Assembly (NCBI RefSeq): GCF_023380265.1
Contig: NZ_CP093366.1
Coordinates: 744,001 to 808,000, forward strand
Direction: 5' to 3'
Length of the DNA: 64,000 bases
From: Bombilactobacillus folatiphilus
GTDB taxonomy: Bacteria > Bacillota > Bacilli > Lactobacillales > Lactobacillaceae
The number at the start of each line of letters is the position of its first letter. Positions within the stretch are counted from its first letter, which is position 1. Below are positions 29,393-47,975 of this stretch, piece after piece. A program made the position numbers and the translations under genes. Under the pieces are notes generated by a model. The model did not search any database, was not told the origin of the DNA, and was given only the letters and a program-made list of their open reading frames with translations.

Positions 29393-30064
29393 ATGCGCAT
29401 GAATATTCTGCAACACACGCCTAATGAAGGTCCGGGCACAATTTTAGATTGGGCGCAAAGTAGGGATAATGAAGTATTTATTTATCATCCAGCGCAGTTT
29501 CAAATTTTACCGAAAGCTTCAGAAACGGATTTTCTGGTGATTTTGGGTGGTCCCATGAGCCCCAATGATCAATTGTCTTGGATTCAACAAGAACGATTCT
29601 TAATTCAGGAATTATTGAACCAAAATAAGCCTATCTTTGGAGTTTGCTTTGGTGCGCAGCAAATTTCCAAAACATTGGGTTATGCCGTGGTGAAAGCACC
29701 GATCAAAGAAGTTGGCTGGGGTAACGTTGTATTACAAAGTCAAGCTATTCCTAAATTGCCTACAAAATTAGACGTTTTACATTGGCATGAAGAAACATTT
29801 GTGATGCCGCAACAAGCGAAATTGTTGTTTTCTAATCAATATTTAGCTAATCAAGGTTTTTTGTTAGGCCATCATGTGGCGGGATTGCAGTTTCATCTGG
29901 AACCTAAGTTGTTAAATGTGCGTGAAATGGCGATTAATGACCAGCAATACGTACAAAATTCAATTTTTCAGCAAAGTGTCACCGAAATTTTGGAGCATCC
30001 AGTGCCAAGCGTTAATCGTCAAGCAATGTTTGTACTTCTTGATTATTTGGTTACGCAGGATTAA
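29393..30064 (+). CDS. Type 1 glutamine amidotransferase-like protein (GMP synthase-like)
   Basis: A 223-residue protein of the class I glutamine amidotransferase fold. The nucleophile elbow is FGVCFGAQQISKTLG and the catalytic His/Glu are in GLQFHLEPK. ILGGPMSPND forms the oxyanion region. Such stand-alone proteins are often annotated as GMP synthase-like, but true guanine synthesis needs an ATP-pyrophosphatase domain that is absent. I chose ATG 29393, 8 bases after GGAGGAGG. It converges with the hydrolase pseudogene and overlaps its end by 14 bases. Confidence 0.83.
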   Translation: MRMNILQHTPNEGPGTILDWAQSRDNEVFIYHPAQFQILPKASETDFLVILGGPMSPNDQLSWIQQERFLIQELLNQNKPIFGVCFGAQQISKTLGYAVVKAPIKEVGWGNVVLQSQAIPKLPTKLDVLHWHEETFVMPQQAKLLFSNQYLANQGFLLGHHVAGLQFHLEPKLLNVREMAINDQQYVQNSIFQQSVTEILEHPVPSVNRQAMFVLLDYLVTQD

Positions 30065-30901
30065 TTTTTTCACTTTGGACCAAATAATTAGCGATGAACT
30101 GAGCCATCAATTTGGGATGTAACCAGTGTAAAAAGTGATGTCCGTTAAGTTTGATTTGGATTGAATATGGATTTTGGTTGAAGTATGGGTTGCCATATTG
30201 TTCATATCCTGCAGCATTTAGGGATGAAATGAAACTTAAGGCGGATATTTCGTCAGGTAACTGGAGATTTTTCATGGACTCTAGCGTTTGAGGTGCTGCT
30301 TTTAATTCGGCAATTTCAGTGGTTGAACCGGATAAGTCAGTATAAAGTTTTTGACAACGTGTTGCTAAATCAGCTGGTAATAATGGATTGATGTCAGCAT
30401 CTGGAATAATTGATTGCCTCTGAGCTTTCAACTGTCGATTGGTCTGGGCTGGGATTCTTCTAAACTATCTTGAAAGGGATCAGTGTAAGATTTCATAATT
30501 TCGACAGTGGTTGGATCAATGCTAATGAATCCCTTGATATTGGTGTTCAGTGTTGCTTGATGGAGGGTAGCCAATAAATACAAAGAACTAAAGCTATGAC
30601 AACATAGATAAACTTCGTTGAGCGGTAATTGATTTAAAAATATTGTAATTTCTTGAACAATATTTTGTGAATTACGTTTCAAATTGTGCGGTTGAGAACT
30701 GGAACCAGATCCTAACAAATCTACACAGAGGCAGTTTATAGTTTGCGGAAGTTCATTCACCAGGCCGTAAAAATCAAAATAAGAACAACCAATTCCCATT
30801 GCTGTGAAGAAAAGCAAATTGATGTGTGGTGAAGTTAATTTTTGCGTTGATATATAAGAAAAAGTACCTGCTTTGGTTGTTAGTTTGTGGTGAAAAATCA
30901 T
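30051..30901 (-). pseudogene. Alpha/beta hydrolase split by a frameshift
   Basis: Two minus-strand frames together read as one hydrolase of about 283 residues. The N-terminal part (30428-30901) has VDLLGSGSSSQPH and the nucleophile elbow LCCHSFSSLYLL. The C-terminal part (30051-30431) has LNGHHFLHWLHP, which can supply the catalytic His. The first frame stops at a TGA near 30428, and the second has only an overlapping TTG there without its own ribosome binding site. The upstream frame starts at ATG 30901 behind AGGAG. Alternatives are two coupled short genes or a sequencing error. Confidence 0.7.
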
Positions 30902-31103
30902 ATATATTCTCCTGACTCAATTTGATTAAAACTTCCTCTACCTTATAGAGAAAATTTTTTATTTGCTTTCATTTTAGCAATTAATAAATTAAAAATTTAA
31001 CTTGCTTATTTATAAGGTTTGGATTCAAATGTATTTTTTGGATTAAAAGGTTATAATGTTCTAAAGTAAGCGTTTTTAAAATTGGAGTATAAAGGAGATC
31101 GTT

Positions 31104-34100
31104 ATGACTAAAGTCAAGTAGGATTACATTGTGTGCTTAGATATTGGAACTAATTCTTGTGGTTTTGCAGCCATGGATATGAAAAATCAATTACTACATC
31201 TTCAAGGCAAAACTGCGATTGGTGCGCGGTTGTTTGAAGAAGGAAAATCTGCTGCTGAACGACGCGGTTTTCGTACGACGCGTCGTCGTCTGAAACGGCG
31301 AAAATGGCGTTTGCGCTTATTAGAAGAATTTTTTGATGATGAGATGTCTCAAGTTGATCCGTATTTCTTTGCCCGAATGCGCGAGTCGGGCTTATCACCT
31401 TTGGATCATCAAAAAACTGCGCAAGCAATTGTTTTCCCTACTCCCAATGAAGATCATGCTTTTTATTGCGATTATCCAACCATCTACCATTTACGAAAAG
31501 CTTTAATGACTCAAGATAAAAAATTTGATTTACGTTTGGTATATTTAGCAATTCATCACATTGTTAAGTATCGTGGGAACTTTTTACAGAAGGATGGTGT
31601 TGATAATTTTAACGCTTCCAAAATCGAAGTTGGTAAAGTTTTAAAAAAGCTCAATTATTTTTTTGCTGAAATCAATCCAGATCATCCAATCCAATTAGCT
31701 ATTCAAAATTCTGCCGAGATTGAAGCTGTTTTGCGTGATGTCAAAAAATCTAAAACTGATAAAGTTAAAAGCATTGGTGAATTATTGGTTTCTGATTCCA
31801 ATCATGATAAAAATACGAAAGCCATTGCGAGTCAAATTGCGAAAGCTATTATGGGTTATAAAACACAATTTGAAACTATTTTATCGCAAGAGATTGATTC
31901 TGATAGTAAAAGTGAATGGCAGTTTAAATTAAGTGATTCAGATGCCGATGATAAATTAGCGGCAATTACGGATCAGGTTGATGAAACTGGTCAAGAAATT
32001 ATTGAAGTTATTCAATCATTATTTGGTGCAATTACGCTGAGTGGAATTGTGGATGAAGGTAAAAGTTTATCCGAGTCAATGGTTCGTAAATATGATGATC
32101 ATAAAAAAGATTTAAAGTTATTGAAACAAGTTATTAAGCAGCATCCCGATCGCGATAAAGCTCAAAACTTGCAACTAGCTTATGATTTGTATGTTAATAA
32201 TCGCCATGGGCAACTGCTAAAAGCTAAAAATAAGTTCAGTGCTAAAAAAGTTATGAGTAAAGAAGAATTTTATAAAACGATTGAGAAGAATTTAGATGAT
32301 TCTTCTGAAGTTAATGCAATTCTAGAGAAAATAGCTTTGGATACATTTATGCCGAAGCAAAGAACCAGTGCCAATGGTGTGATTCCTTTTCAACTTCACC
32401 AAATTGAATTAGATCAAATCATTAAAAATCAGAGTAAATATTATCCATTTTTAGCGCAGCGTAATCCTATCATTGAACATCAAAAGCAAGCCGCTTATAA
32501 GCTTGATGAATTAATTCGTTTCAGAGTGCCATATTATGTAGGACCAATGATTACAAAAGAAAACCAAATTAAAACTTCAGGGACTGAGTTTGCGTGGATG
32601 ATCCGTAATCAAAATGACCCTAAGCCTAATGAAGCTATTACACCTTGGAATTTTGATGAAAAAGTCGATCGGATGGCAACGGCTAATCAATTCATTAAGC
32701 GGATGACCACGAAGGATACTTATTTGTTGGGTGAAGACGTTTTGCCGGCGAATAGTTTGCTATATCAAAAATTTACAGTTTTAAATGAGCTAAATAACCT
32801 TCGAGTTAACGGTCAACATTTAAAAGCAGCTACAAAACAAGATGTTTATGAGAATCTGTTTAAGCAAAACAAGACTGTTTCTAAAAAATGTTTGAATGCG
32901 TATTTATGTCAAAGCTATCAAATGGCGAGTGTGAAAATCGAGGGTCTGGCTGATGAACATAAATTCAATTCCAGTTTAAAAACATATAATCAATTTAAAA
33001 AGTTTATTCCACTATCTATTTTGGATAATGCTGACTATCAAGCTGATTTAGAGAAAATCATTGAGTGGTCCACAATTTTTGAGGATCGTCATATTTATCA
33101 AGCTAAATTGGAACAAGCCCAGACTGAACAAATTTCTTGGTTGACTGGTAAGCAAATTGGTTGCTTACTGAAATTACGCCATCAGGGTTGGGGAAGCTTG
33201 TCGTATAAATTGTTGATCAATTTGCATGATGATAATGGTCAGAACATTATCGAACGGTTATGGGATAGTCAATTGAATTTTATGCAAATTGTCAAAGAAC
33301 CTGCTTTTAAATCGGTAATTGATCAAGCCAATTCATCTTTAGTTAAAGATAACCAAGAAAATGCGGTAGAAGATGTGCTGGCAGATGCTTACACCTCACC
33401 TGCTAATAAAAAAGCCATTCGCCAAGTAGTGAAGGTAGTTGCCGATATTGTTAAAGCAGCAGGCGGGAAAATTCCAGCAAAATTTGCCATTGAGTTTACT
33501 CGCGAACCGCAAAAAAATCCGCAATTGTCTAAGCAGCGAGGCAAACAATTAAAAGAAGCTTATAAAGAAATTGCTAATCAATTAGTTGAGCAAGGTGTTA
33601 AGGATGAATTAGATTCAGCTATCCAGAGCAAGCAATTAGTTAGAGACAAATATTATCTATACTTTATGCAGGGTGGACGCGATGCGTATACTGGTCAGAC
33701 TATCAATATTGATGACATTACTACTAAATACCAAATTGATCACATTTTGCCACAATCTTTTATTAAGGATGACTCTTTGAATAATCGTGTTCTAACAGCT
33801 TCTGCACTAAACAATGCTAAATCTGATGATGTTCCGTTCAAGCATTTTGCCAATAAGCTAGTCCCTGATTTAAAGATCAGTGTATCTGAAATGTGGAAAC
33901 AATGGCAAAAAGCGGGGATGATTAGCAAGTTTAAATTAAATAACTTACAATTAGATCCCGATAATTTGGATAAGTATAAACGTGCAGGTTTTGTTAATCG
34001 CCAATTGGTCGAAACAAGTCAAGTAATTAAATTGGTAACGATTATTTTGCAGACCAAATATCCTGAAGCGGAAATTATTACTGTTAAAGCTAGTTATAAT

Positions 34101-35295: not shown

Positions 35296-35329
35296 ATAGA
35301 GAATCCAATTTTCGGATTCTCTATTTTTA
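35296..35329 (+). terminator. cas9 terminator
   Basis: Perfect 11-base arms (35296-35306 and 35314-35324) with a 7-base loop and five T residues follow cas9 by a few bases. Confidence 0.88.
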
Positions 35330-35335
35330 GGCAAT

Positions 35336-35449
35336 AAAAAATCCCAGCCATAGGGTTAGGGATAAGTGTTGAAACTTTGCTTTCGCATTGTTTGATTTTA
35401 AATCTAGTTGTTAGATCAATAAGGTTTATTGCTGGGAGCTACCCAACAA
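35336..35449 (-). ncRNA. tracrRNA
   Basis: On the minus strand 35429-35406 is complementary to the CRISPR repeat over 24 bases with one mismatch; the paired core is TTGATCTAACAACTA. It is followed by a bulge and a second A/T-rich pairing segment. A small nexus-type hairpin (TGC GAAA GCA near 35387-35378) comes next. A terminator hairpin then pairs ATCCC with GGGAT (35363-35341 region) ahead of a run of T. The RNA would be about 110 bases, transcribed against the cas genes from the promoter at 35455-35483. This matches type II-A tracrRNA layout. Ends are estimated. Confidence 0.85.
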
Positions 35450-35495: not shown

Positions 35496-36413
35496 ATGGC
35501 ATGGCGATCGGTTATTATTACGCAACATGCAAAGTTAACTTATTCAATGAACATGATGATTGTACAAACACGTGATGGGATTAATCAGATTCCCATTGCA
35601 GATATTAAGTTATTGTTGGTGTCGACATCACAAGCGGTGATTACTAGTGCTTTAATTAGCAAGTTAGCGCAGAGTCAAACAAAAGTTATTTTTGTAGACG
35701 AGCATTATCAGCCAGTATCGGAAACAATGGATTATTATCCAGGCAGTCGTAATTTACAGAAATTGCGCCAACAATTTGGTTGGGACTTACAGCGTCAAAA
35801 AATTTTATGGACCAAAATTGTGAATGCGAAAATCAAAAATCAAATTGCAGTTTTAGATAATTACCAAATAGATTCTTGTAAACTGCAGACAGAGTTAGAC
35901 GCTTTAGAATTAGATGATGTAACTAATCGAGAAGCAGTTGTCGCGCGAAAATATTTAAAATATTTTATGATGTTATTTGGTCACCAATTTGTCCGTCGCA
36001 GCGTAGAGGCGATCAATGCAGCTTTAGATTATGGCTATGGCATATTATTGGCCAGTTTTGATCGGGAGATTGCAGTTAATGGTTACTTAACTTATTTGGG
36101 AATCCATCACCATTCAGAAGAAAACGAATTTAATTTAGGTTCTGACTTAATGGAACCGTTTCGACCAATTGTGGATTATTGGATGAAAGATCATGATCAA
36201 ATTTCAGAGTTTACGCCTGATATTAAATATGGTTTGGTAGAACTTTTAAGTTTAGAAATTCAGTTCAATGGGCAAACAACGTTATTAACTAACGCGATTA
36301 CGACTTATACAAGAAATTGTTTTCGTTTTTTGAATGGAGAAACAGATGAAATTAAAATGGAAATGAGTGTGACAAATGAGGTACCGAATAATGCGCTTAA
36401 TGATAATGTTTGA
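35496..36413 (+). CDS. cas1: CRISPR-associated integrase Cas1 (type II)
   Basis: The metal-dependent integrase that inserts new spacers with Cas2. The 305-residue length is normal for type II. It starts MAWRSVIITQHAKLTYSMNMMIVQT, a typical type II-A Cas1 N-terminus. The C-terminal half holds NAALDYGYGILLA, LGIHHHSEENEFNLGSDLMEPFRPIVD (active-site His and acidic residues) and VELL. AAGGAG precedes ATG 35496. The end overlaps cas2. Confidence 0.95.
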   Translation: MAWRSVIITQHAKLTYSMNMMIVQTRDGINQIPIADIKLLLVSTSQAVITSALISKLAQSQTKVIFVDEHYQPVSETMDYYPGSRNLQKLRQQFGWDLQRQKILWTKIVNAKIKNQIAVLDNYQIDSCKLQTELDALELDDVTNREAVVARKYLKYFMMLFGHQFVRRSVEAINAALDYGYGILLASFDREIAVNGYLTYLGIHHHSEENEFNLGSDLMEPFRPIVDYWMKDHDQISEFTPDIKYGLVELLSLEIQFNGQTTLLTNAITTYTRNCFRFLNGETDEIKMEMSVTNEVPNNALNDNV

Positions 36414-36696
36414 TTTGCCAATGGAGACCACTGCCGAAAAAAGAGAGTACCGCCAATTTCGGAAAAAATTAATTAATGAGGGTTTCTTGATGATTCAATA
36501 TTCTGTTTATGAGCGCGTGTGTGTAACACGCCAAACTGCAACTTTCCTAGAAAATCGCGTTCGGCAGTTTTTGCCTCGAGGTGGTGTAGTTCAATCACTA
36601 ATGGTAACTGAAAAACAATATAACGATATGCATTTTTTAGTTGGTAAGCCAATTAAAGATGTGCGTAATACATCCGATCGGACGGTGATTTTATGA
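36391..36696 (+). CDS. cas2: CRISPR-associated protein Cas2
   Basis: The partner of Cas1 in spacer integration. I prefer ATG 36391, which gives 101 residues beginning MRLMIMFDLPMET, the canonical type II-A Cas2 start. GAGGT lies 9 bases upstream. An earlier in-frame ATG at 36376 would add five residues (MRYRI). YRQFRKKLINEGFLMIQYSVYERVC matches the ferredoxin-like core. The gene overlaps cas1 by 23 bases and csn2 by 4, so the three are translated as a unit. Confidence 0.94.
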   Translation: MRLMIMFDLPMETTAEKREYRQFRKKLINEGFLMIQYSVYERVCVTRQTATFLENRVRQFLPRGGVVQSLMVTEKQYNDMHFLVGKPIKDVRNTSDRTVIL

Positions 36697-37379
36697 TTTT
36701 GTCCTATTTAACGCACAAAAAGTGGCAATGGCAGACTAAAGGAATTAAGTTGATCGCCACTAATAGTTCAATTGCTTATCGGGACTTAGTACAGGGATTT
36801 CAGAGTCAAAAAGATAGTTTGCTGTGTACCAGTGATCATTATGAGCAATTAGAGATTAGCAAAACGTTTGATTTTGTGGGTGATTTGTTATTAAGTGGTG
36901 ACGTTACCAAAAAATATCTTGCACATATTGTCAAGAGTTATATCACTAACCTGGATGAAGACAATCGTAATAAAATTATGATTGCTTTCCATCATTTAGA
37001 GGCTACTGTACAGGTAGAGGCTACTGTACAGGATTCGTTATTGTTAGAAGACTTGCCCTTGGAAATAGATTTTGATGAAGATCTAAGGAAATCTTTAAAA
37101 ATGTTGAATGTACATTTAGATCAGCAGATGTTGCTTGATCCGTGTGCTATAACGAAAACAGTTCTAAAGATTCATGAGATTTGTCATCTCAAAACAATTC
37201 CTGTAGTTTGTAATCTCGCTAATTACTTAGAATTACAGGAACTGTCTGAAATCAATCAATTAGTTAATGAATTAAATTTAACTTTCATTGTTTTAGAGTT
37301 TGTGACTCCTGATTTGCTAAAGGTCCCACTAGGAGTGCAATTCTATTACATTGATGAAGATCTTGTTGATTGGTATTAA
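36693..37379 (+). CDS. csn2: CRISPR-associated protein Csn2 (type II-A)
   Basis: A ring-forming DNA-end binding protein needed for adaptation in type II-A systems; it fixes the subtype. It has 228 residues, starts MILSYLTHKKW and ends FYYIDEDLVDWY, as Csn2 does. A tandem 18-base duplication at 36999-37034 inserts six extra residues (EATVQV EATVQD) in the charged lever region. It overlaps cas2 by 4 bases and ends 32 bases before the first repeat. Confidence 0.92.
   Translation: MILSYLTHKKWQWQTKGIKLIATNSSIAYRDLVQGFQSQKDSLLCTSDHYEQLEISKTFDFVGDLLLSGDVTKKYLAHIVKSYITNLDEDNRNKIMIAFHHLEATVQVEATVQDSLLLEDLPLEIDFDEDLRKSLKMLNVHLDQQMLLDPCAITKTVLKIHEICHLKTIPVVCNLANYLELQELSEINQLVNELNLTFIVLEFVTPDLLKVPLGVQFYYIDEDLVDWY
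36999..37034 (+). repeat. 18-base tandem duplication inside csn2
   Basis: Two consecutive copies of GAGGCTACTGTACAGGTA, the second with a final T in place of A (GGAT). They are in frame and add six codons. Confidence 0.9.
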
Positions 37380-37411: not shown

Positions 37412-37513
37412 GTTTTAGGTAGTTGTTAGATCAATGAGGTTTAAAATGCACTGGACGGGCAGACTTAAAAACATCCTGTTTTAGGTAGTTGTTAGATCAA
37501 TGAGGTTTAAAAT
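37412..37513 (+). CRISPR. Minimal CRISPR array: two identical repeats, one spacer
   Basis: Two identical 36-base repeats (37412-37447 and 37478-37513) begin GTTTTAGGTAGTTG and end GAGGTTTAAAAT. They flank one 30-base spacer (37448-37477, starting GCACTGGACGGG). The G-start and near-perfect pairing with the tracrRNA region mark it as the active repeat type for this locus. The leader is the short A/T-rich stretch after csn2. No further copies of the repeat are seen elsewhere in the window except the anti-repeat. Confidence 0.92.
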
Positions 37514-37541: not shown

Positions 37542-38216
37542 ATGGAATTTTTGATACATAAAAGTACCGCTTGGGGTAAAAATAATTTATTTTATCCTGT
37601 TTTCCAATCAAGGTCAGGTCATTATTGTTGATCCGCCTAGCGATGTGGAACAGTCTAATTCGTTTTTACAAAATTATGGTGTGAAACGCTTGAACATTTT
37701 TTTGACGCACAGCCATCATGATCATATTGATGGTATAACTTTTTTGTTGAATCATTTTCAGTGTCAACTCTATGTGTCAGCGTTAGAATGGTCCATTTGG
37801 TCCCATAAGCCCGATTTGGTTGAACAAAATGTAACTAAATTCAAGCATGCACAAGTTTTAAAATTTGATGATGTGCGATTAAAATGTCTATTGACACCAG
37901 GTCATACGCAAGGCTCAAGTTGTTTTATGGTCAACGATCGGTATCTCTTGTCGGGAGATACGCTATTTATTGAGGGTTGTGGTCTTTGTGGCGATTATCC
38001 TCAATCTGACGGCGAAATGTTTACCTCGTTACAACAAATAAAAACTTTGGCAGATGACTTATAGTTTACCCGGGACATACGTATCGGCGACCTCCGGGAC
38101 TTACGCTCCAATATGTGAAAGAACGTAATATTTATTTACGGTTTCGAAAATTAGATCAATTTATTAGTTTTCGTAATCGAGGTCAGCAAAAAAATTATTG
38201 GATTTTAAGTAAATAA
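37542..38216 (+). pseudogene. Metallo-beta-lactamase-fold hydrolase with two frameshifts
   Basis: Three frames together give one glyoxalase II-like protein of about 224 residues. The N-terminus MEFLIHKSTAWGKNNLF is in frame from ATG 37542. A T-run at 37590-37593 shifts it to ILFSNQGQVIIVDPP and the zinc motif THSHHDHIDG, with TPGHTQGSSCF and LSGDTLF. A stop at 38062-38064 follows DDL. The next frame reads VYPGHTYRRPPGLTLQYVKERN and ends at TAA 38214-38216. Each break is explained by one base. It starts 28 bases after the last CRISPR repeat. Confidence 0.8.
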
Positions 38217-47366: not shown

Positions 47367-47699
47367 TTACAATGTTTCCTTAATGTTGTTTAGAACTTCC
47401 ATCAAGATATTATTTGGCACTTTTTCTATATAAATCACTTTTCGTTTGAGAAAATCAATTGACTTTAATTGTTCGACAAAAATTGTTCCGTCTGTTATGG
47501 TTCCTTTATCTAGTTTGATGTGCAAAGGATGGTCATAGTTTCCATGTGAGATCGGAACAATCCAAATAAATGGTGAAGTCAAGCTCATTATATCTTGGCT
47601 AATTATTAAAGCCGGTCGATACCCCTTTTGTTCATGCCCTAAAGAAGGATCGAAATGTACTTTAACGATATCCCCCTGGTGAGGTTGATATTTTTCCAT
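47367..47699 (-). CDS. MazF/PemK-like mRNA interferase toxin
   Basis: A 110-residue protein of the CcdB/PemK fold. QGDIVKVHFDPSLGHEQKGYRPALIIS is the N-terminal signature with the conserved Arg-Pro. IWIVPISHG and a C-terminal FVEQLKSIDF follow, with the second active-site region. Such toxins cut mRNA at short sequence motifs. The gene begins one base after the antitoxin stop on the minus strand, the normal antitoxin-toxin order. Confidence 0.9.
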   Translation of the reverse strand: MEKYQPHQGDIVKVHFDPSLGHEQKGYRPALIISQDIMSLTSPFIWIVPISHGNYDHPLHIKLDKGTITDGTIFVEQLKSIDFLKRKVIYIEKVPNNILMEVLNNIKETL

Positions 47700-47975
47700 T
47701 TATAGGAGTTCTCTTCCAAGTGGTTTGACATTTTCCCAGTCCTTTAAATCTTTAGGGTATTCATAACTATCTGGTGTTCCTTGGTAATTGGCGTACTTCT
47801 CGGCTAAAGATTGTTTTTTAATTGGATTTAGGACAACGACAACGTGATCATTTCTTTTTTCGGTTTCTATTTGTACCTTGGAACCTGTGATTAATCCAGC
47901 TGCTTGCAGGATTTCTTTTGTTAGAATGACACCATTACTATGGCCCCAAGACATTATTTTACTTTCTTTAGTCAT
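47700..47975 (-). CDS. MazE-like AbrB-family antitoxin
   Basis: A 91-residue protein. IMSWGHSNGVILTKEILQAAGLITGSKVQIET is the swapped-hairpin DNA-binding domain. The acidic, Tyr-rich tail (YANYQGTPDSYEYPKDLKDWENV) would wrap and neutralise the toxin. It probably represses its own promoter (48006-48034). AGGTGA lies upstream on the minus strand. Confidence 0.88.
   Translation of the reverse strand: MTKESKIMSWGHSNGVILTKEILQAAGLITGSKVQIETEKRNDHVVVVLNPIKKQSLAEKYANYQGTPDSYEYPKDLKDWENVKPLGRELL

Follow-up and report, generated by a model that had tools for sequence, protein, structure and literature searches.

An early stop codon in cas9 of a type II-A CRISPR locus in Bombilactobacillus folatiphilus

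In the 64,000-nucleotide stretch of the Bombilactobacillus folatiphilus genome analysed here (NZ_CP093366.1, positions 744,001 to 808,000; hereafter the window), the cas9 gene of a type II-A CRISPR locus cannot be read from its native start, since its sixth codon is TAG; the disabling lesion thus precedes most of the cas9 frame. The probable explanation is that this cas9, part of a spare locus, has recently acquired a genuine nonsense mutation, with production of Cas9 strongly lowered or abolished. The genome is 1.64 Mb in two contigs, and the host is probably a bee-associated lactobacillus.

Results

The cas9 start and the early stop codon

Re-reading of the sequence from position 31104 gives the codons ATG ACT AAA GTC AAG TAG GAT TAC ATT GTG, and the claim of the preliminary description that a TAG is the sixth codon of a reading from an ATG with a strong ribosome binding site is exact; that site, AAAGGAG, lies 6 bases ahead of the ATG. 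The frame beyond the TAG, which had been described as open for 1386 codons from GTG 31131, was confirmed as such by ORF listing and translation, the latter revealing no further stop or frameshift in these codons, up to 35291. The encoded protein has the Cas9 motifs LDIGTNS, AIEFTREP, DHILPQS, NNAKSDD and YHHAIDAY, in which we presume the catalytic residues to correspond to those of SpCas9. The protein database holds the 1386-residue, GTG-started version (P0002), listed as an ordinary Cas9. The coordinates of the features of the locus are collected in Table 1.

Table 1. Features of the type II-A locus, with positions in the window
Feature	Position	Strand	Basis and remarks
TATAAT, possible -10 element of a cas9 promoter	31052..31057	+	Sequence only; not in promoter scan, weak
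AAAGGAG, ribosome binding site of native start	31091..31097	+	Sequence; pairing energy -8.8 kcal/mol
Native cas9 start ATG, MTKVK codons and premature TAG (31119-31121)	31104..31121	+	Sequence; P0003 also MTKVK
AGGA, possible restart ribosome binding site	31120..31123	+	Sequence; -4.3 kcal/mol
Open Cas9 frame from GTG, 1386 aa	31131..35291	+	Translation; TIGR01865, 880.4 bits; RuvC and HNH motifs
Cys codon, Gly in 77/77 relatives	31134..31136	+	Alignment
tracrRNA candidate	35320..35448	-	Antirepeat 35394-35429; inferred ends
cas1	35496..36413	+	TIGR03639, 273.6 bits
cas2	36376..36696	+	TIGR01573, 70.3 bits; ORF, true start possibly a few codons in
csn2	36693..37379	+	TIGR01866, 109.7 bits (cut-off 35); Pfam Csn2 just below cut-off
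In-frame perfect 18-bp tandem duplication within csn2, six residues	36997..37032	+	Repeat search
CRISPR array	37412..37513	+	Repeats 37412-37447 and 37478-37513 (36 nt); one 30-nt spacer, 37448-37477

Were the TAG decoded as an amino acid, by readthrough or suppression, full-length Cas9 would be made, and an inserted residue might be tolerated, given that relatives differ at this codon position (D, E, K, S, N, Q, T or G). Such decoding is, however, extremely improbable: no suppressor tRNA with the amber anticodon, CUA, was found among 58 tRNA genes (anticodons by ARAGORN; 150 of 169 first-look candidates scored), and TAG ends 12 of the 40 listed ORFs of the window, i.e. it is an ordinary stop here.

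Comparison with relatives

The GTG-started protein was aligned with 77 of the 119 other proteins (P0003-P0079) obtained by homology search as the best 120 of 2,815, the protein's own entry (P0002) and P0080-P0121 being left out of the alignment. All 77 have a residue at the column of the TAG (D in 31, E in 17, K in 12, S in 7, N in 6, Q in 2, T in 1 and G in 1), and in all 33 loci taken from named genomes the frame, followed back from the aligned position, meets no stop before a start codon that lies five or more codons upstream. It follows from these proteins and loci that ATG 31104 is the native start; an alignment of relatives' cas9 5' ends had been proposed in the preliminary description. 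A relative starting at the equivalent of GTG 31131, the case that would have spoken against the whole proposal, was looked for and appears in none of the 77 proteins and none of the 33 loci. Among the sequences compared, the TAG occurs only in the cas9 of the window and, with a stop in 0/77 proteins and 0/33 loci, it exceeds chance as a cas9 lesion. The variability of its column implies that the lesion acts by termination and not by loss of a key residue.

The closest protein among the matches listed (the best 120 of 2,815), P0003, is 71% identical and has MTKVK before the TAG column, as does the window. It belongs to the same Cas9 lineage, as do the Cas9 of Lactobacillus sp. ESL0785 (P0004, 61%) and that of the Lactobacillus MAG UW_TS_LAC3_1 (L003, 56%), the latter with cas1, cas2 and csn2 in the window's order; unlike the window, all three can be read without a break from the native start and have Gly ahead of LDIG. 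The same lineage and gene order are found at a locus of Nicoliella spurrieriana (L129). This related type II-A locus lies on a 344-kb plasmid, NZ_CP093360.1, in an isolate obtained from Tetragonula carbonaria, a stingless bee, and matches with 66% DNA identity over 30% of the query; its location hints at plasmid-borne spread of this CRISPR lineage. As to same-species strains, the database cluster of the window's own Cas9 has 3 members, and a scan of viral contigs gave no relative.

State of the rest of the protein

Apart from its start, the protein has changed little. In a test with 37 representatives below 85% identity, it departs from the others at 5 of 295 otherwise invariant columns, the other 36 departing at 0 to 9. 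Relative-rate counts are higher for the window protein than for P0003 with all six outgroups, with chi-square values of only 0.49-3.76; at columns at least 95% conserved there are 9 window-only changes and 5 P0003-only changes, and at columns of 70% conservation 39 and 36. The codon make-up of the gene implies that a stop would arise from 4.1-5.4% of point mutations, and fewer than about 55-73 substitutions, or 1.3-1.8% of the gene, would be expected under neutrality after complete loss. The lack of a second lesion, together with a number of departures within the range of relatives, supports recency; either the lesion is recent or the gene is still in use.

Of the five departures, the most radical (BLOSUM62 -3) is the Cys that the preliminary description had noted in place of the usual Gly before LDIGTNS, a Gly that all 77 aligned relatives indeed have. 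The change begins 13 bases past the end of the TAG and concerns residue 2 of the GTG-started protein. Since residues 2-5 hold 4 of the 295 invariant columns, the chance of such a placement, if uniform, is about 1.4%, a figure judged after the fact. The substitution may reflect a further mutation in an already dead gene, lapsed constraint at a new N terminus, or a local sequencing fault.

Flanking genes and the possibility of a sequencing error

The genes on both sides of the locus look damaged. Upstream, a frame break near 30430 seems to divide an alpha/beta-hydrolase gene (30051-30901, minus strand); downstream, an MBL-fold hydrolase gene (37542-38216) has both ends in another frame than its middle and looks broken in two places. 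The second piece of the alpha/beta-hydrolase has no Pfam match, which makes its break a weaker case than that of the MBL-fold gene, and a stretch taken for a paralogue of this hydrolase gave no match to the broken gene. Further along the window, a PemK/MazF-like toxin gene (47367-47699, within 47367-47975, minus strand) directly follows a 91-residue ORF that may encode an antitoxin.

With these breaks in both neighbouring genes and two unusual changes within 18 bases, it might be supposed that the TAG, perhaps along with the Cys codon, is a sequencing or assembly error and that the real gene is intact. This is improbable: some 6 kb of cas9, cas1, cas2 and csn2 carry no frame break while the flanks do, a pattern that uniform error would not give, and the error would have to be a substitution creating a stop. 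The assembly, moreover, consists of only two contigs, though its completeness is 97.24% as against 99-100% in five of six congeners.

The DNA of the upstream flank has partial matches in 5/6 congeners, the best being 2.1 kb at 69% (G001), that of the downstream flank has partial matches in 4/6, none over 86 bases, and a Cas9 match is present in 3/6, at 25-38%. Given such partial flank matches and distant Cas9s, the congeners have no positional counterpart of the locus.

Possible restart at GTG 31131

A different fate for the interrupted message would be reinitiation at GTG 31131, nine bases past the TAG, after synthesis of MTKVK, giving a Cas9 that lacks its first nine residues. Its output would be lower, and its RuvC activity might be weakened, leaving a nickase or DNA binder, or still be present. 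We regard such a restart as possible, but rather unlikely. The frame is intact and little changed, and the placement of the Gly to Cys change at residue 2, being the most radical of the five departures, leans towards a restart, subject to the after-the-fact nature of the 1.4% estimate. As the preliminary description had it, and as was confirmed, an AGGA lies 7 bases before the GTG and is formed in part by the stop codon, with which it has two bases in common; any NAG codon before the GAT would give AGGA too. In a pairing-energy comparison with a hand list of 40 of the 76 ORFs in the window, the GTG is at least as strong as 11 of the 40 listed starts, itself counted among them, and 29 of the 40 (GTG 31131 included) are as strong as its -4.3 kcal/mol, the native ATG reaching -8.8. 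The same value is, however, reached by about 19% (53/276) of internal in-frame GTGs and, as a restart signal, the AGGA does not exceed chance.

The comparison with relatives also weighs against a restart, in that none of the 77 relatives and none of the 33 loci uses the GTG as a start. Furthermore, the restart product would have three residues before the catalytic Asp, whereas 223 of 224 Cas9s keep at least six; this count took in 239 other Cas9 proteins, 224 with a findable motif and 15 without a motif match, and the starts given in the database are predictions. The one exception, P0107, comes from a contig of 4,439 bases and may be truncated.

Restart of translation is a known consequence of early nonsense mutations in lacI; a literature search for restarts of this type returned no match. 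Reinitiation is regarded as frequent in prokaryotes (PMC5972666) and strict coupling is reported in 13 of 14 gene pairs tested (PMC6728339). Bacterial short-leader reinitiation and coupled gene pairs (PMC4833913; PMC6728339; PMC5972666) likewise involve a short reading that ends a few bases before an SD-like start. GTG 31131, too, follows its stop closely and has an SD, but here the arrangement is absent in 77/77 proteins and 33/33 loci, and the restart product is a prediction. The distance between leader and gene in Firmicutes peaks weakly at 15-16 bp (PMC4833913), as against nine bases from stop to start here. As to whether the product would be tolerated, dead SpCas9 (dCas9) accepts small deletions in much of its structure (PMC8476515), but the text of that study does not contain the words N-terminus or N-terminal.

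The type II-A locus around cas9

By its content the locus is of type II-A, an assignment that concerns its genes and makes no claim that it works. The cas1, cas2 and csn2 genes adjoin cas9, with NCBIfam scores over the cut-offs. A candidate tracrRNA would be encoded leftward between cas9 and cas1; it includes a repeat-like copy at 35405-35428, and repeat and antirepeat are predicted to form 32 pairs (-36.7 kcal/mol), its own fold being only mildly better than those of shuffled sequences (z -1.77). On the same strand, a promoter-like site at 35482-35454 is identified by consensus only, and the scan found no more such sites than in shuffles. No Rfam family reached its gathering score in the window.

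The tandem duplication in csn2 is absent from all 14 comparable relatives, which have a six-residue gap thereabouts, not always at the same residue (24 Lactobacillaceae loci were searched, of which 15 had a csn2 match and 14 covered the stretch).

The repeat core does not occur elsewhere in the genome at up to 3 mismatches. For the single spacer, no exact match to 27 of its 30 bases was found in viral contigs, and a weak match to a Vibrio phage in a phage collection (24 bases, E 0.2) was taken as chance. Self-targeting was considered as a cause of cas9 loss and rejected, the spacer having no other match in the genome at up to 3 mismatches; with autoimmunity thus removed as a motive, this result was counted against loss.

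A second type II system in the same genome

A second locus at C1:567-573 kb comprises cas9 (1140 aa), cas1, cas2, a 341-residue gene and an array of 9 repeats. The 341-residue gene occupies the csn2 position and has no NCBIfam match, so the system is named type II and not type II-A. Further arrays of its repeat family, of 10 repeats (C1:365.5-366.1 kb; 1 mismatch per repeat) and 3 repeats (C1:967.9-968.0 kb; 4 mismatches per repeat), bring the second system to 19 spacers in three arrays, 18 of them distinct, as against one at the window locus. No break was seen in the second system, whose Cas9 is covered from end to end in alignments with relatives. Beside a system with more spacers, the window locus looks spare.

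The array of the second system contains two adjoining identical repeat-spacer units (L072:17038-17169), one spacer being duplicated, and another spacer (L072:17272-17301) matches 27 of 30 bases of a BppU-like phage gene (L072:6430-6459) in an adjacent prophage-like stretch some 10.8 kb off; this near self-match may reflect escape by the prophage. At L126:3108-3176 (C1:527.6 kb) a solitary repeat with 7 mismatches is followed directly by a hairpin and T-run, with a phage integrase gene (L126:3454-4578, minus strand) about 300 bases off. In its arrangement this putative unit resembles solitary repeat units that have been described as RNA anti-CRISPRs, or Racr (PMC10651486). At L115:2861-3063 (in the C1:967.9-969.0 kb region) a two-spacer mini-array of the same repeat family (4 mismatches each) has a terminase small-subunit gene and a HicB-like gene nearby. 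About 0.9 kb from it a solitary repeat is again followed by a hairpin and T-run (L115:3930-4000); the two features may represent an array carried by a phage and another Racr-like unit. A further solitary repeat-like copy, with 6 mismatches, is found at L117:333-368 (C1:145.1 kb).

Discussion

In our view these observations are probably explained by a nonsense mutation that a spare locus has recently suffered in its cas9. Ribosomes loaded at the strong native site would for the most part be released after MTKVK, so that full-length Cas9 would not be made and the system would be off or nearly off, with leaky restart at GTG 31131 possibly yielding a little N-truncated protein. Such a loss would be tolerated, there being one spacer at this locus and a second type II system that keeps more memory, and the perfect duplication in csn2 fits an operon in which constraint has recently lapsed. 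We count in favour of loss the native start fixed by relatives, the frame without a second lesion and the lack of a suppressor anticodon, and also the one-spacer array, the second system, the csn2 duplication and the broken-looking neighbours on both sides. Against it count the absence of general decay in the protein (5/295 departures compared with 0 to 9), as in a gene still in use, the position of the sole radical change at the would-be restart N terminus, and the presence of a start with a usable SD nine bases past the TAG. Of the alternatives offered in the preliminary description, recent inactivation or internal restart, the recency has thus gained support, whereas the restart is possible but rather unlikely.

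A more speculative proposal, which we consider quite unlikely, is that the early stop has created a five-codon leader feeding low-level reinitiation of an N-truncated Cas9, with the Gly to Cys change marking the shift of the N terminus, where constraint would have lapsed, and the rest of the protein remaining under selection. The outcome would be a natural, down-tuned Cas9, possibly weak in RuvC activity and thus acting as a nickase or binding DNA, retained alongside a second type II system.

A naturally interrupted cas9 has already been published for a lactobacillus (PMC11288051), and in kind the present case is therefore known; a literature search on natural nonsense mutations of cas9 found none by title. 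The precedent, a split cas9 in Ligilactobacillus salivarius NCK 1355, is likewise a lactobacillus type II-A gene that a small lesion has interrupted in nature, and its genome too carries a further CRISPR-Cas system. The NCK 1355 gene is split into two coding sequences, whereas the stop in the window cuts off only the codons of the first nine residues; NCK 1355 had self-targeting spacers, whereas the window spacer has no other genomic match. In cell-free tests the split L. salivarius protein kept some activity and may still bind and cut to a degree (PMC11288051).

Taken as a loss, the locus would exemplify a genome that gives up one of its two type II systems and retains the other, at a stage so early that gene calling hides the break. 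If, by contrast, translation does restart at GTG 31131, the locus would reveal how small a part of RuvC strand 1 suffices for a natural Cas9, and that a single stop codon can turn a nuclease down rather than off.
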